IMG/VR virus record: IMGVR_UViG_3300032278_000031
Location: 1 to 39,702 of that record
Strand: one strand, 5' to 3'
Length of the DNA stretch: 39,702 nt
Origin: a virus
In this document: positions 5,250 through 17,281 of the stretch, one piece after another
How the letters are laid out: each line of letters starts with the position of its first letter
Position numbering within the stretch: position 1 is the first letter of the stretch
Position numbers and translations under genes: made by a program
Notes under the pieces: generated by a model
What the model was told of the DNA's origin: nothing
Database searches by the model: none
The model's input: the letters and a program-made list of their open reading frames with translations, nothing else

Positions 5250-7625
5250 TTATATAGTTTGGACTAGGTTATTAGCCATCGACCAATGCAGAGACTCATC
5301 TCTTATTTGTGGTTTGATAATGTTATTTTGATTAGAGCTAGAAATGATATTACTAGTAACTATGTTATTTTGATTTAAAGATGATTGATCAGCAGTTCTT
5401 GTATCTTTTAATTGTTGATTTTGATCTGATGTATTATATATTCCTTCTCGTTCAGTACTAGCTACATTCAATGATTCAGTTTTAGCTATGGCTAGATCTA
5501 TTAGTTTTCCTGCGAATGGTATCGCACTTAGAGCAGCCATGGATAGTACTACGCCACCAAGAGCTTTAGCATCTTTGGCGAATCCTTTGACAGATTTACC
5601 TAATATTAAAAATCCATCTGCTAGGTTTCTTATCTTTTCAGGTTCATGGTCTAGTAGTTTTGATAATCCTAACGCAGCTGCACCTAAAGCTAATAAAGAT
5701 GGTATCGCAATTGCACTAGTAATACCAAATGCTGCTAGTGAAATGCCTAGTGTGACAAATCCTGCAGCTAAACCTAATAGATTTTGGAATGGTATGTTAG
5801 CTAATTCTACAATAGAAGCAGTGATAGTTTGGATGCCAGTGATTACTAAATTTCCTACAGTAGATACAAAAGTTATCAATCCATTCATTAGTCCTAATAT
5901 TGTATTAGATATTGTTTGGATGATAGGTACAATTACTCGCGCACCAAATTCTACTATTTTACCTAGTACGCCTAATATCGTCTCTGATATTATTTTGATT
6001 ACAGGAACTAATACTTTTGCAAATTCTACTATTTTACCTAATACACCTACTAATAAATCAGCTACTATTTTAATCACTGGGGCCATTATACGAAATGCAA
6101 AAGCTAGTCCAATCATCCCAACAGTTAAAACACCAAGTGCTATGGAAGCGATTGTAAGTGTATAAGGATCTATTTTACCTAAAGCTTTAAATAAGAAAGC
6201 AATACCTTGACCTAAACCTTTCATTAAAGTAATAAATGTACTGGTAATAACTTTAGCTATTTTTTGTACAATACTACCAATACCATCAACAAATGTTTTA
6301 ATGAGATTTAAGGCGGATTTTAGAACTCCGCTTATCCCATCTACAAAAGCTTTGATTGTGTCAAATATTCCTGTTACAATACCTTTTAGCCCACCACCTA
6401 ATCCTTGACCTATTTTTTCTAGGAAGCCAGGACTTTTAACTTCTATTTCTTTATCTTCTTCTGGTATAGATGTGCCTTCTTGAGCAGCAACTAGTTCATC
6501 ATGTCGTTGTTGTTCTTCAGCTGCTTTTTCTTTTTTACCTGCACTTTCTTTTCTTTCTTCTGTGACAAATATATCCTTTATAGCAGATATATCATCTTTT
6601 ATAAAGATTAAGGTATCTCTTATTACTTCCAGATAGGGTGGACTCCCGCGCAGTGCATCATCAATTTTTTCTAATTCTTGGGTTTGGGTTTCTAGTTCAT
6701 ATTCCAATTCTAAGTTTGCTTCTTGTGTATTTTCTGTGAGGGTTTCTAAATCTGTTTTTTCTATTTCTTCTTTTCTGGATTGTTCTATATCTATGTTACC
6801 AAGAGAAAATACTTTTCCAATGCCACCAATTAAATTTTCTGCTAGATTTCCTGATGTACCTAATGATTCTTTTCTTTCAAATTCTTCTTTTTCTGTATCA
6901 CTCATTCCTCTGACTAATGATTGTTTTGCAATTTCTGATTCTATTTTCTTTTGTTTCAGTATTGCAGGGTCGGTAAATATTTCTCGTATACCACTAAACA
7001 TTTTATCATCGCCTAGAGTTTCACTTTTACCAAATAACTTCGATCCTAGATCAATAGTTTTACCAAGGCCAGATTCTTTAAATTTTCCTGATGTTGTTTC
7101 AGCTAAACCTTTAAGGCCACCAGTTAAACTTTCACCTATGTTTCCAAATAAACCTTGAAATACGTTAAGTGGATCAGCTATTCTATTTTCTATTTGCTTT
7201 TGTCTATCTTTTAATAATTTACTTGCTTTTCCAGCTTTATTTTTTTCATCATTTAAATGGTCTATTTCTGTTTTAGATAATTTATTTTTTTCAGTTTGTA
7301 ATTTTTTGTTTATATGTTTTATTTTTTCTTGGGCTTTATGCTCAGCTAGAATTACAGATTTTCGTTCATTTAGTTGATGTTCTGTTGCGTCTGCATTATT
7401 TTTTTCATATTGTCTTACATTATCAGATAGGTTTTGGAGATCACGAGCTTGTTTTCTCTGCCGAAGTAAATTGTTTTTTTCAGATTGGAAGGATTTTTTA
7501 TCAGCTTCAGTTGTGGCATCTTTAATTTTAGCAGTCTTATCTCTGATTTCTTTGCTTAGTGCATCACGTTGAGTTTGTAAAAGTTGTTGCCTTTCTAAAT
7601 GTTTTATTTCTCTATCTGTAGCCAT
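5250..7625 (-). CDS. Tail tape measure protein
   Basis: The 791-residue protein follows the gp26 and gp51-like genes, where the tape measure is expected. Residues 1-160 are highly charged coiled coil (Lys/Glu/Gln/Arg rich). Residues 160-400 are mixed Gly and acidic segments. The C-terminal half carries a string of long hydrophobic helices from about 410 to 730. Within these an approximately 27-residue unit recurs (LLVGVLGKIVEFAKVLVPVI, then TILGVLGKIVEFGARVIVPI, then TILGLMNGLITF). This pattern is typical of phage tape measures, which set tail length, fill the tube and help DNA cross the inner membrane. It plays the role of T4 gp29, but I see no sequence match to that protein. It is the last gene of the minus-strand late operon. 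Confidence 0.82.
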   Translation of the reverse strand: MATDREIKHLERQQLLQTQRDALSKEIRDKTAKIKDATTEADKKSFQSEKNNLLRQRKQARDLQNLSDNVRQYEKNNADATEHQLNERKSVILAEHKAQEKIKHINKKLQTEKNKLSKTEIDHLNDEKNKAGKASKLLKDRQKQIENRIADPLNVFQGLFGNIGESLTGGLKGLAETTSGKFKESGLGKTIDLGSKLFGKSETLGDDKMFSGIREIFTDPAILKQKKIESEIAKQSLVRGMSDTEKEEFERKESLGTSGNLAENLIGGIGKVFSLGNIDIEQSRKEEIEKTDLETLTENTQEANLELEYELETQTQELEKIDDALRGSPPYLEVIRDTLIFIKDDISAIKDIFVTEERKESAGKKEKAAEEQQRHDELVAAQEGTSIPEEDKEIEVKSPGFLEKIGQGLGGGLKGIVTGIFDTIKAFVDGISGVLKSALNLIKTFVDGIGSIVQKIAKVITSTFITLMKGLGQGIAFLFKALGKIDPYTLTIASIALGVLTVGMIGLAFAFRIMAPVIKIVADLLVGVLGKIVEFAKVLVPVIKIISETILGVLGKIVEFGARVIVPIIQTISNTILGLMNGLITFVSTVGNLVITGIQTITASIVELANIPFQNLLGLAAGFVTLGISLAAFGITSAIAIPSLLALGAAALGLSKLLDHEPEKIRNLADGFLILGKSVKGFAKDAKALGGVVLSMAALSAIPFAGKLIDLAIAKTESLNVASTEREGIYNTSDQNQQLKDTRTADQSSLNQNNIVTSNIISSSNQNNIIKPQIRDESLHWSMANNLVQTI

Positions 7626-7629
7626 TTAA

Positions 7630-7824
7630 TTACCTTTTGGATTTTAGTCGTGCATTTTCTTTGCGAATTCTTTCATTTTCCTTTTCTATGTAATCTTTTA
7701 GTAAACCTATATAGATTTCTCTCTCGAACGGCATCATATTTTCTAGTTCACTCAAGCTATATTTATGGTGTTGAATCATGGAAAAATTAGTAACATACAT
7801 ATTACTTAAACTGTCATGACCCAA
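7630..7824 (-). CDS. 51: gp51-like baseplate hub assembly factor / frameshift tail of gp26
   Basis: The 64-codon frame encodes KYSLSELENMMPFEREIYIG followed by a charged helix. The MMPFEREIY core is typical of the short proteins annotated as gp51 in marine T4-type phages; T4 gp51 itself is longer (249 residues). The only frame-extending start is TTG at 7824, two bases after the gp26 stop and without a clear Shine-Dalgarno. Internal ATGs at codons 9 and 16 also lack one. The frame is -1 relative to gp26, and slippery heptamers lie just before the gp26 stop, so it may be made mainly as a gp26-gp51 fusion of about 301 residues, like the lambda GT tail-assembly chaperone. The tape measure gene follows four bases after its stop. 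Confidence 0.65.
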   Translation of the reverse strand: MGHDSLSNMYVTNFSMIQHHKYSLSELENMMPFEREIYIGLLKDYIEKENERIRKENARLKSKR

Positions 7825-7826
7825 CG

Positions 7827-8534
7827 CTATCCGAAAAAATTTTGTAGCCCTTCTACCTTTATTGTATCATCATAATCACAGCTTCTACAATTGTAATCTA
7901 CATTATGTGAAAGTTTGGGCATAGTTTCAAAAAATGATTGAATGTCAGCAAATTGCCCCTGAGTCAATCCTTCAAAAAATTCTTCTTTTTCATCTTTGTT
8001 ATAATCTGCCATGTCATGTGTATCATCACCATTCCAAATAAAACCTACGCAATCTTGAATCATATTCATTGTATCTTCAACGTTCATATCTCCGCTGGGA
8101 TCAATACTTTTTAAAATATTCACTGTAGGGTATTTCATAGAGATACCAATTGTATCTGTTAGATTTATTTCATTGCTGTGATTTTCAGATTTTTCTATCG
8201 TTACTTGTTCTAAATCAATAGACATTTGATTACTAGTATTACAATCTGGACAAGATAATCCTACTACGCTTTCAGCTCCAATTGATTTGGTTCTTAGATT
8301 GAGGAAAATATATTCTAAATCGAAAACAGGAAGATTATCTACATTGATTTCTTCTGATACACAATTTGTAATAATTTGTTTAATACCATTGATCATTTCC
8401 AATTGATCTTCACCTTCCATGGCCATTAAAAGTATTTTTTCTTCTTTTACTAGGAACGGCCTGTAAGATATTTCTCTGTTATTGGATGGTAGTGTGAGTT
8501 GGTAAATAGGCACATCAAGTTTTGGTAAAGCCAT
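7827..8534 (-). CDS. 26: gp26 baseplate hub assembly protein
   Basis: The 235-residue protein has the conserved pattern of T4 gp26 and relatives (T4 baseplate family): SYRPFLVKEEKILLMAMEGE near residues 24-43, then II.NC, LPVFDLEYIFLNLRTKSIG (residues 68-86) and a CPDC pair, with a second Cys pair (CRSCD) near the C-terminus that may bind zinc. T4 gp26 (208 residues) is needed to assemble the central baseplate hub. The ribosome-binding site AGGAG lies before ATG 8534. It sits directly upstream of the gp51-like frame and the tape measure, the position of tail-assembly chaperones in other phages. Confidence 0.85.
   Translation of the reverse strand: MALPKLDVPIYQLTLPSNNREISYRPFLVKEEKILLMAMEGEDQLEMINGIKQIITNCVSEEINVDNLPVFDLEYIFLNLRTKSIGAESVVGLSCPDCNTSNQMSIDLEQVTIEKSENHSNEINLTDTIGISMKYPTVNILKSIDPSGDMNVEDTMNMIQDCVGFIWNGDDTHDMADYNKDEKEEFFEGLTQGQFADIQSFFETMPKLSHNVDYNCRSCDYDDTIKVEGLQNFFG
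7833..7842 (-). promoter_or_regulatory. Candidate -1 ribosomal frameshift site
   Basis: On the minus strand the gp26 codons CAA AAT TTT TTC GGA TAG contain two overlapping X-XXY-YYZ heptamers in the correct phase: A-AAT-TTT (7842-7836) and T-TTT-TTC (7839-7833). One sense codon separates them from the stop. After a -1 slip the reading continues Arg-Ile-Ala into the gp51-like frame with no stop. I did not identify a clear downstream pseudoknot. Confidence 0.55.
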
Positions 8535-8546
8535 ATTAAAAATCTC

Positions 8547-9185
8547 CTATGTTGATATTGGTGCGTTGCCGGGTATAACTTCTTCTTTGTCGTTGTACAT
8601 CATTACCCATCGACTATAATTGAATTCAATGTTAAGTTTTAAAATATCATTTCCTTCGTAACTGAGTTCTTGACTCGGCATAGTGATAGGAAATGCTTCT
8701 ATTAATTTTATTCTATAAGTTATATCATCATGCATATTATATTTTGTAACTATCATATCTGTTACATAATTTGCTCTAAATTGATATAATGGAAAATTAC
8801 TATCATTTATTGGGTGTATATAGAGAAACCAATTATTAAAAAATATTCTTTCTTGCATATTTTCACTGCAGTTAAAAGTTAATTCAAAATTCTCAAAGGT
8901 GGCTTCAAAAGGATATACATAATCTGGGCCAATATCAGGAATAGATCCAGTTTCAAAACCCATTCCTGGCAGGGAAGCAGTGTCGCACATTATACTGAGG
9001 GCTTCTGGATTAAAGAAATTTGAAGGTTTCTTTTCAATAGGCATTAAACCTGGCGGAGTATTGATCAATACTTGGTATCTGTTGCCCATTGCTGGGCCAC
9101 CTTGTGATTTTAAATAACTTCTTATTGTTGAAATGCTACTTCGCTTACTTTGCACGTAAAGATCTCCTTGAATCGTTCCACACAT
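8547..9185 (-). CDS. 54: gp54-like tail-tube initiator (tube-fold protein)
   Basis: The 212-residue protein has the contractile-tail tube fold signature: NRYQVLI strand near residue 35, CDTASLPGMGFETG (about 68-81), the FEATFENFELTFNC strands, a RIFFNNW segment, then FPITMPSQELSYEGNDILKL and EFNYSRW near the end. The C-terminal stretch resembles the end of T4 gp54 (APELSYDGDN...FDVTFAYRV). gp54 sits on the baseplate and starts tube polymerisation. The ATG at 9185 overlaps the upstream gene by 41 bases after a weak AGAAAG. A later in-frame ATG (residue 33) would cut into conserved sequence, so the long form is preferred. It could also be annotated simply as a tail-tube paralogue. Confidence 0.72.
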   Translation of the reverse strand: MCGTIQGDLYVQSKRSSISTIRSYLKSQGGPAMGNRYQVLINTPPGLMPIEKKPSNFFNPEALSIMCDTASLPGMGFETGSIPDIGPDYVYPFEATFENFELTFNCSENMQERIFFNNWFLYIHPINDSNFPLYQFRANYVTDMIVTKYNMHDDITYRIKLIEAFPITMPSQELSYEGNDILKLNIEFNYSRWVMMYNDKEEVIPGNAPIST

Positions 9186-9729
9186 CTTGCTTTCTACCCT
9201 TAATGAATTTTTCAGTGGGTAGCATTATAGTTGAGAACCAATCATCGTCATCGACTTTTAGAAATAAACTTTTACATTGAGCGTATAAGTATCTTTTGAA
9301 ACATGGTCTGAAAAACATATATTTAGCAGTTTGTTTTAATATACTGTAGCTAATACTTACTCTGTCCATCAGCTTTATATGTGGACTTATCAATGGCCTT
9401 AGATTATTGATCAACATAGCTCTGTGTTTTGGTTGTATGTAATGTAGATTCAGTGCACTAAATCCATTACTGCTTCTGCCTATAATTATTGCCAATGGAT
9501 ATTTGTCATAATAATCCAATCTCGATTTAGTTTTAGGTTCATAGAAGAACATGTACATATGGCCAATTTTAACTGTTCGATCTAAATCACCTGCTTTTTT
9601 CCTCAGAGTAGCTGGTACACGTACTTTTAATTTTTGTAGTTGTGCTCTAAACCATTTTCTGGCTGATTCGTCAGCTTTGACTCCAGGCTGTTTTTGTGAT
9701 TGAAAAAATCTTGCTACTTCGGCTAACAT
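9145..9729 (-). CDS. Conserved T4-type virion/assembly protein
   Basis: The 194-residue basic protein contains a conserved core, MYMFFYEPKTK, YYDKYPLAIIIGRSSNGFSA and LNLHYIQPKHRAMLINNL (residues 58-110), then ISYSILKQTAKYMFFRPCFK and a Lys/Arg-rich C-terminus. I recognise this as a conserved protein of marine T4-type phages but cannot name it securely. Position next to gp4 makes a DNA-end protector (gp2-type) or hub/tail component possible. It is not gp53, which lies at 11123. The start is notable: no Shine-Dalgarno, and a TATAAATA late promoter ends exactly five bases before the ATG, so the predicted transcript begins with the start codon. Confidence 0.6.
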   Translation of the reverse strand: MLAEVARFFQSQKQPGVKADESARKWFRAQLQKLKVRVPATLRKKAGDLDRTVKIGHMYMFFYEPKTKSRLDYYDKYPLAIIIGRSSNGFSALNLHYIQPKHRAMLINNLRPLISPHIKLMDRVSISYSILKQTAKYMFFRPCFKRYLYAQCKSLFLKVDDDDWFSTIMLPTEKFIKGRKQDVWNDSRRSLRAK

Positions 9730-15530: not shown

Positions 15531-16820
15531 ATGCCAAGTGCTGTATTCAATAATCGTTCTGAAGAAGTTGTACCATTATCATTAACTTTGCTTAATGAAA
15601 CTACACTTTTTGTAGATTTTCATAAAAGGCCAGAAACTACGTATAATGATTTGACAGTAAATGATTTTGATATGCCTTTTGTGAAATTGGTAAAGCGTGA
15701 TGGTTCTATTGTATATCTCACAAGCGAAATTGATCCAGGCACTGGTGATCTTGTTCCTCCAGATATTGATCCTATTACTGGAGGATTTACACGACTAGGA
15801 ACTATTAAAAATACAAATGAAAATGCTGGGTATGAGCCGATTGTAACGCCTGACTATGCGGGGGATACTAGAAAATATGATTTTAATGCATTGATACAAT
15901 TTAATAATTCCTTTAGCACTACTACACAAGTAGAGATGATCAGTGGAACAATTCCAGAAGGGCTGGCACTTAATACAGGACTGACATCAAATAATTTTAT
16001 TTCTTTTAGTGGTAATATCAAAGATGAATTTTTTGGATTGTCATTAGATGATTATAGAGATTTGCATATTCAAAATCAGCAAAATCAAATAACAGTATTC
16101 ATGGGTGTTGAATATATTGACAATTTAGTAGATAAAAATGTTATAACAAATCCACCCTCAACCTTTAGTGCTGGCGATAGGTTATACAATGTTGGTGAAT
16201 CAAGTATTGATAATAGAGAAATTGAATCTGTAGAAAGATATGTAGATTCTGATGCTACAGTTACCAATGATGGTAGTTTTATATCAGGTACAGAGTATCT
16301 TATTACTTTTGTTGGTAATACTAATTTCACCGCTATTGGTGCTAGTGTTACTCCTGCTGTGGGTGAGATTTTTACAGCTACAGGTGTTGGGGGCGATGGA
16401 ACAGGCGAAGCTACTAGTGAAATAAAACTTAAAGTAAAAATTAAAACTTATATTTCAAAATCTGTTAATACGGGTGGTGAATATATAGAAATTTATGAAC
16501 CATTCATGGCATCACAAAAACGTAAATTTGCTCTGTCTACAATGATAGAAGAGCCAATAGATGATGACTGGCGGGGGTATACCACAACTGTTGACGTAAA
16601 TGCTAGATATGAAGATGTGATGTATGAAAATACAACTACAGATTTGTTTAGTAGAAGATATGATTTTACTCTAGGTTTGAGGGAAACAATAGAAAATAAG
16701 TTGGTAGAAGAAAAAGCTTTTAATATTACTATCCATGCTAGTCCAGAAGCATTGAGGAATAGATTTGAAGGTGGCATGGGTATTCAGATTCAACGATATA
16801 TAAACGTGGATGTTCATTGA
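15531..16820 (+). CDS. Putative baseplate/virion structural protein (429 aa)
   Basis: This 429-residue, beta-rich acidic protein lies between gp5 and the PAAR protein. The N-terminal part (LLNETTLFVDFHKRPETTYN) and C-terminal part (SRRYDFTLGLRETIENKLVE, then FNITIHASPEALRNRF) look like conserved virion domains, but I cannot name the family. Residues 251-294 hold one copy of the module found in three other genes (GTEYLITFVGNTNFTAIGAS, then VGEIFTATG and GTGEA). No Shine-Dalgarno is obvious before ATG 15531, two bases after the previous stop; translation may be coupled. Confidence 0.65.
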   Translation: MPSAVFNNRSEEVVPLSLTLLNETTLFVDFHKRPETTYNDLTVNDFDMPFVKLVKRDGSIVYLTSEIDPGTGDLVPPDIDPITGGFTRLGTIKNTNENAGYEPIVTPDYAGDTRKYDFNALIQFNNSFSTTTQVEMISGTIPEGLALNTGLTSNNFISFSGNIKDEFFGLSLDDYRDLHIQNQQNQITVFMGVEYIDNLVDKNVITNPPSTFSAGDRLYNVGESSIDNREIESVERYVDSDATVTNDGSFISGTEYLITFVGNTNFTAIGASVTPAVGEIFTATGVGGDGTGEATSEIKLKVKIKTYISKSVNTGGEYIEIYEPFMASQKRKFALSTMIEEPIDDDWRGYTTTVDVNARYEDVMYENTTTDLFSRRYDFTLGLRETIENKLVEEKAFNITIHASPEALRNRFEGGMGIQIQRYINVDVH

Positions 16821-17281
16821 TGGCTAATTTACCTATTGCAGTTATTGGAGATTCTGTTAGTACACATTATGCTAATAATACTCCGCCTTATTTTGTTACT
16901 CAAACTAGAATTATTGGTGCAGCTGGCCCAGCAGCTGCTCGTGGTGCTAAGGGATTTTTCTCTGGTAGCTTGGATGTTTTTGCAGATAGTCGGCCTGTTC
17001 ATAGAGTGTCAGATATTGTAGGGCAACCTCATTTTAGTAATGCAACGCCAATTGATATACCACCATCTGGTGGGTATGTACCATGTGAAACAATTGCTAC
17101 TTTGGGATTTGCAGCAGTTTATAATTTTCATCATCAGTCATATTTGGCTGAAGGATCACCGACAGTTTTTGTCAATGGTAAATCGGTAGGGCATCAGGGG
17201 GCTATATATGTTTGTAGTGCTTCTGTTACTGAAAGAGGGGATAAGTCAGAACCAACAGTTTTTGTGCCTAATAGTACATAG
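16820..17281 (+). CDS. 5.4: PAAR-domain spike tip protein (gp5.4-type)
   Basis: The 153-residue protein has PAAR-like features: an N-terminal strand with Gly-Asp (AVIGDSVSTH), HRVSDIVGQPHF in the middle, and the typical C-terminal GSPTVFVNGKSVGHQG (about 117-132), followed by TERGDKSEPTVFV. PAAR proteins cap the tip of gp5/VgrG spikes, often holding a metal with His/Cys residues; His and Cys are present in several of these loops. ATG 16820 overlaps the previous TGA by one base. A TTG immediately before it is in frame but less likely. gp25 follows in the operon. Confidence 0.82.
   Translation: MANLPIAVIGDSVSTHYANNTPPYFVTQTRIIGAAGPAAARGAKGFFSGSLDVFADSRPVHRVSDIVGQPHFSNATPIDIPPSGGYVPCETIATLGFAAVYNFHHQSYLAEGSPTVFVNGKSVGHQGAIYVCSASVTERGDKSEPTVFVPNST

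Follow-up and report, generated by a model that had tools for sequence, protein, structure and literature searches.

The gp26-like gene of an uncultured marine T4-like virus ends inside an open reading frame (ORF) resembling gp51, immediately upstream of the tape measure gene. The question raised by this locus is whether the two ORFs are separate genes, or the two parts of one tail-assembly chaperone gene joined by programmed −1 ribosomal frameshifting. The window analysed is the whole stretch of 39,702 nucleotides (IMG/VR record IMGVR_UViG_3300032278_000031). A sequence-only reading of this DNA had proposed the frameshift, by the layout of lambda G/GT. For the long-tailed phages, a 2016 paper calls G-T frameshifting widely conserved, "except T4" (PMC5009743). 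From the comparison of sequences presented here, the gp26/gp51-like ORFs are very probably a tail-assembly chaperone pair expressed by programmed −1 ribosomal frameshifting.

All elements of the locus are on the minus strand. The gp26-like ORF (8534..7827, 235 aa), taken as the short chaperone form (TAC-N), was delineated from its ORF and its family matches (phrog_150, E 3.7e-72; Pfam PF12322 T4_baseplate, E 6.5e-66); NCBIfam yielded no match. It starts with ATG, preceded by an AGGAG Shine-Dalgarno sequence (8544..8548, in the context TAGGAGA), and ends with CAA AAT TTT TTC GGA TAG. The stop codon TAG (7827..7829) is found one codon past the heptamer T TTT TTC (7839..7833). A second in-phase heptamer, A AAT TTT (7842..7836), would give the same fusion. 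The gp51-like frame is exactly −1 relative to gp26, runs without a stop from a point before the slip as far as 7633, and ends with a TAA (7632..7630). Its C-terminal domain (TAC-C, 7633..7833) comprises 67 codons after the slip and is supported by a match to phrog_634 (gp51, E 8.5e-25) and by pN/pS ratios. Translation through the slip gives a fusion of 301 aa, the junction of which reads QNFFRIALG. The tape measure gene (5250..7625, 791 aa; phrog_305 tape measure, E 3.9e-7; phrog_58, E 3e-5) begins 4 nt past the end of the gp51-like ORF and has its own Shine-Dalgarno sequence, AAAGGT. The gp26 gene, the −1 ORF and the tape measure gene are therefore contiguous, and the first two overlap each other. 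The end of gp26, the phase and extent of the gp51-like frame, the length and junction of the fusion, and the tape measure gene that follows are all as the sequence-only reading had given them.

Directly before gp26, a tail tube-like protein is encoded at 8547-9185 (PHROG 45, E 2.8e-36), which is probably gp54-like. The listed start of this ORF overlaps the end of a gp2-like DNA end protector (9145-9729). Elsewhere in the window, the baseplate cluster contains a PAAR-like protein (PHROG 281) beside a 429-aa protein without PHROG match (16817-17281 and 15531-16820). Rfam and tRNA scans of the window returned nothing.

Relatives were gathered by gp26 similarity, not by the presence of a slip site: 80 environmental viral loci, to which isolate phages were added, giving 101 loci with a gp26 match; the set non-redundant at 85% comprises 65 loci. 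The isolates include the cyanophages S-PM2 and S-CAM22, Pelagibacter phage HTVC008M and Methylophilales phage Melnitz, as well as phages of Sinorhizobium, Rhizobium, Ochrobactrum, Stenotrophomonas, Citrobacter, Vibrio, Klebsiella, Serratia and Salmonella. The sequence T TTT TTN is present in phase at the end of gp26, with an open −1 frame after it, in 97 of the 101 loci, across highly divergent relatives; the last base is C in 76, T in 19 and A in two. The proposed lambda-like layout is thus supported by a conserved site and phase. Two slippery heptamers had been noted in the window, and both are in phase, but conservation is limited to T TTT TTN; A AAT TTT occurs in just 11 of the 97 loci and was rejected as the main slip site. 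The distance from the heptamer to the gp26 stop is 0, 3, 6, 9 or 24 nt across the 97 loci, which indicates that what is conserved is the heptamer and the −1 reading rather than the stop. The stop lies 24 nt past the heptamer, instead of 3, in 17 of the 97 loci (for example L018, L021, L042, L055, L063, L071, L075 and L076), so that gp26 continues past the heptamer for eight codons in the 0 frame, not for one.

The heptamer is maintained at the level of synonymous choice. The first Phe codon is TTT in all 65 non-redundant loci, compared with 69% TTT and 31% TTC elsewhere in the gp26 genes (P about 3e-11, assuming 65 independent loci and ignoring shared ancestry). The codon before it ends in T in 65/65 loci, whatever its amino acid (P about 10^-12.7 given the amino acid, with independence likewise assumed and ancestry ignored). 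In the window, TTTTTTN occurs in phase 7 times among 12,398 codons. At this rate, a given gene would have it among its final few codons with a probability of about 0.1-0.2%, so that its occurrence at the end of gp26 by chance is unlikely. Conservation among the relatives is far stronger evidence than this estimate, and removes doubt about the observation. On these comparative grounds, we hold with high confidence that the frameshift is real.

Four of the 101 loci lack a run of six T: Kuttervirus UTK0004, Magnus and Kevin, which are Ackermannviridae, and Vibrio phage K448. They have NTT TTC and an open −1 frame. In these loci (L089 3220-3450, L095 2285-2470 and L096 2230-2415 for the Ackermannviridae; L097 2150-2355 for K448), gp26 ends with NTT TTC NNN TAA, and the −1 frame encodes a piece resembling the C part of gp51 that is unannotated or under-annotated. 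The slip region of Serratia phage Kevin reads G GTT TTC, which resembles the T7 gene 10 site. The tape measure gene is not directly next in the annotation of these four phages; a gp5-like hub lysozyme or wedge gene follows the gp26/gp51 piece in Magnus, Kevin and K448. The gene order also varies among other isolates. In Synechococcus phage BUCT-ZZ01 (L099 2211-3115), a late sigma factor gene, not the tape measure gene, comes after the gp26/gp51 pair, and in Melnitz and HTVC008M (L084 4911-5240, L087 4196-4528) an extra ORF of about 110 aa separates the gp51 piece from the tape measure gene.

The surroundings of the slip site contain two candidate stimulators. Upstream, the anti-Shine-Dalgarno pairing energy computed over the 65 relatives peaks at −16 from the Phe codons. 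The conserved element is a Shine-Dalgarno-like GAGGG located 10-11 nt before the heptamer; its form in the window is GAAGGG (7848..7853), at codons −5 and −4 before the Phe-Phe slip codons. Where codon −5 encodes Glu, it is GAG in 24 of 32 loci versus 84 of 398 Glu codons at other nearby positions (P 8.5e-10, ancestry ignored), and Gly at codon −4 prefers GGA or GGG (P 8e-4, ancestry ignored). The observed pairing was never matched by synonymous shuffles. The spacing of 10-11 nt falls inside the 9-14 nt given for internal Shine-Dalgarno sequences that stimulate −1 frameshifting (PMC5009743). Downstream, a stem-loop is predicted by folding at 7770..7825, consisting of an 11-bp stem (7825..7815 with 7780..7770) and an inner hairpin. 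It begins 7 nt past the heptamer, with an energy of −17.5 kcal/mol (z −3.39), and none of 200 shuffles was as stable. The 80 nt past the slip fold more stably than synonymous shuffles do, with a mean z of −1.26 over the 65 loci, versus 0.05, −0.34 and −0.37 in control regions. As z is below −2 in just 21 of the 65 loci, the predicted downstream stem-loops are lineage-specific and missing from many relatives. The stem register of the window recurs in L003 and L030, with base changes that keep the pairing, and other lineages carry stems of their own. A single homologous downstream structure was rejected, as the position and partner of the stem differ between lineages. The strength of the hairpin and that of the Shine-Dalgarno element are not correlated, as a trade-off between them would have it (Spearman 0.09, P 0.46). 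The upstream element and the downstream stem-loop probably act as stimulators of the slip.

The relationship to T4 was examined with profiles. Against a profile of the fused proteins, T4 gp26 aligns with nothing but the part before the slip (E 6.6e-20). For T4 gp51, the alignment with this profile spans positions 8 to 244 of 249 and passes through the frameshift point (E 2.5e-11), and the C domain alone matches residues 206-244 of T4 gp51 (E 3.6e-5). The N part of T4 gp51 itself matches T4 gp26 (E 2e-6). By these alignments, the short form is represented in T4 by gp26 and the long form by gp51. Unlike the pair of the window, T4 genes 26 and 51 are separate and divergently transcribed from opposite strands, which makes their joining by frameshift impossible. 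T4 gene 26 ends with GAG TTC TTT GAG: the Phe-Phe pair is kept and the heptamer is gone.

An AlphaFold model of gp26 was obtained with a mean pLDDT of 91, from an input alignment restricted to the window and IMG/VR sequences. In a second-look alignment of residues 1-94, the best matches were 3fgx (Z 8.4), 2ob9 (Z 7.9) and 3klu (YqbN, Z 7.1), where a Z below 8 can reflect a common arrangement. The match to 2ob9, the HK97 tail assembly chaperone, extends over 84 residues with a middling Z. The next matches were 5ir0 (Z 5.2) and 6vek (Z 4.3), unrelated entries scoring 4.3 and below. Foldseek alone found no significant match to the gp26 model in the PDB (E above 1), and a sequence search with the gp26 profile found no match among solved structures. 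The model suggests that the N part of gp26 is chaperone-like and resembles the HK97 tail-assembly chaperone, which is supporting rather than decisive. Profiles and fold together support the proposal of the sequence-only reading that gp26 and gp51 of T4 are the tail-chaperone pair, with one amendment: T4 gp51 comprises the full N and C parts, and the gp51-like ORF of the window therefore corresponds only to its C-terminal part.

Could the gp51-like ORF instead be translated alone, through re-initiation or coupling once gp26 has terminated, without any fusion? It is mostly annotated as a separate gene in database records, and there is a Shine-Dalgarno-like sequence near the end of gp26; such sequences near gene ends can aid coupling (PMC5009743). 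However, GAGGG usually lies at least 30 nt from any start of the −1 frame. After the slip, the −1 frame of the window offers TTG (codon 4), ATG (codon 12), ATG (codon 19) and TTG (codon 27); as the sequence-only reading had it, no Shine-Dalgarno sequence was found at any of the four. Among the 65 relatives, only two have a −1 frame start with its own Shine-Dalgarno sequence, versus 52 for the ATG of gp26, and nothing points to independent initiation. Protein selection begins at the slip, ahead of any conserved start: from the slip to the conserved Met some 20 codons later, pN/pS is 0.35 in the −1 frame, compared with 1.07 and 1.94 for the two remaining frames; the −1 frame of the C-terminal domain has values of 0.35 and 0.30. 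Since the −1 frame is selected before any conserved start codon, it would be translated by ribosomes coming from gp26. Judged by codons and substitutions, the second ORF is without initiation signals of its own and is under protein selection from the slip onward. The synonymous conservation of the heptamer and the presence of N and C parts in one protein in T4 also speak against separate translation, which is considered improbable.

Slippage of the RNA polymerase on the T run, rather than of the ribosome, would yield the same fused frame through an extra U in the transcript, and runs of 7-8 T are indeed found in 13 of the 65 relatives. In the other 52, the run is exactly six. Six T are short for efficient polymerase slippage, and the candidate stimulators, which would be specific to ribosomes, are at the expected spacing. 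This origin of the fused frame is held to be even less probable than separate translation. Lastly, the frame break might be a sequencing error or the result of gene decay in one continuous gp26-51 gene, given the overlap of the open frames and the homopolymer run at their junction. The break is nevertheless at the same homologous position in 97 loci, finished isolate genomes included, and the stop codons and their distances from the heptamer differ among these loci. An error or decay is practically excluded, being already refuted by the sharing of the break with relatives.

The preferred reading is thus programmed −1 ribosomal frameshifting. Most ribosomes would stop at the TAG to give the short form, gp26 or TAC-N, whereas a minority would move backwards by one base on T TTT TTC to produce the long form, TAC-NC, probably aided by GAAGGG and the stem-loop. 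By analogy with lambda gpG/gpGT, both forms would coat the tape measure protein, whose gene comes next, and tail-tube subunits would be recruited through the C domain. T4 would make the same two products from separate genes. In lambda too, a short form and a −1-frameshifted long form are encoded just before the tape measure gene, the slip taking place where the first gene ends; the lambda heptamer, G GGA AAG, is not that of the window. The arrangement of a −1 slippery site flanked by an upstream internal Shine-Dalgarno sequence and a downstream stem-loop is that of E. coli dnaX, with the role of the flanking elements predicted in the window, where the slip would occur on T TTT TTC and not on the dnaX heptamer A AAA AAG. 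The chaperone genes of Vandenendeviridae and Andersonviridae also have an open −1 frame after TAC-N and a poly-T motif conserved across the family, but the motif is GTTTTT and the phage group is another one (PMC12846349).

It seems somewhat likelier than its negation that the signal is composite: T TTT TTN, with an internal Shine-Dalgarno at dnaX spacing in most lineages and separately arisen hairpins, would together tune the ratio of short to long forms, and in T4 the entire signal would have disappeared once the long form had a gene of its own. Neither the Shine-Dalgarno-like element before the slip nor the hairpins particular to each lineage were found described in the papers examined, the 2022 study discussed below being considered by its abstract and citations.

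Vladimirov, Gautam and Davidson (2022, Virology 566:9-15, doi 10.1016/j.virol.2021.11.003) reportedly identified the tail assembly chaperones of T4-like phages, including T4 genes 26 and 51. Their abstract reportedly presents frameshifting as a conserved feature of several groups of T4-like phages, with T4 using genes 26 and 51. The study is cited likewise, including for poly-T −1 signals in TAC-N genes of T4-like phages, in PMC10885494 and PMC12846349. As far as its abstract and these citations go, the system described there is the one found here: gp26 is TAC-N, the C part of gp51 is TAC-C, and a poly-T −1 slip is located upstream of the tape measure gene. The T4 interpretation of the sequence-only reading is right and, having been published in 2022, is not new. 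The window is a well-supported new uncultured example of an already described T4-like chaperone frameshift; with the central idea already published, the gain lies in confirmation, extension and mechanism. Independent tests, namely the profile alignment spanning the junction, the fold, and selection at the codon level, back the reassignment made in 2022 for genes 26 and 51 of T4. The common annotation of marine T4-like phages is also corrected, as their "baseplate hub" gp26 and "hub assembly catalyst" gp51 would be one frameshifted chaperone gene.
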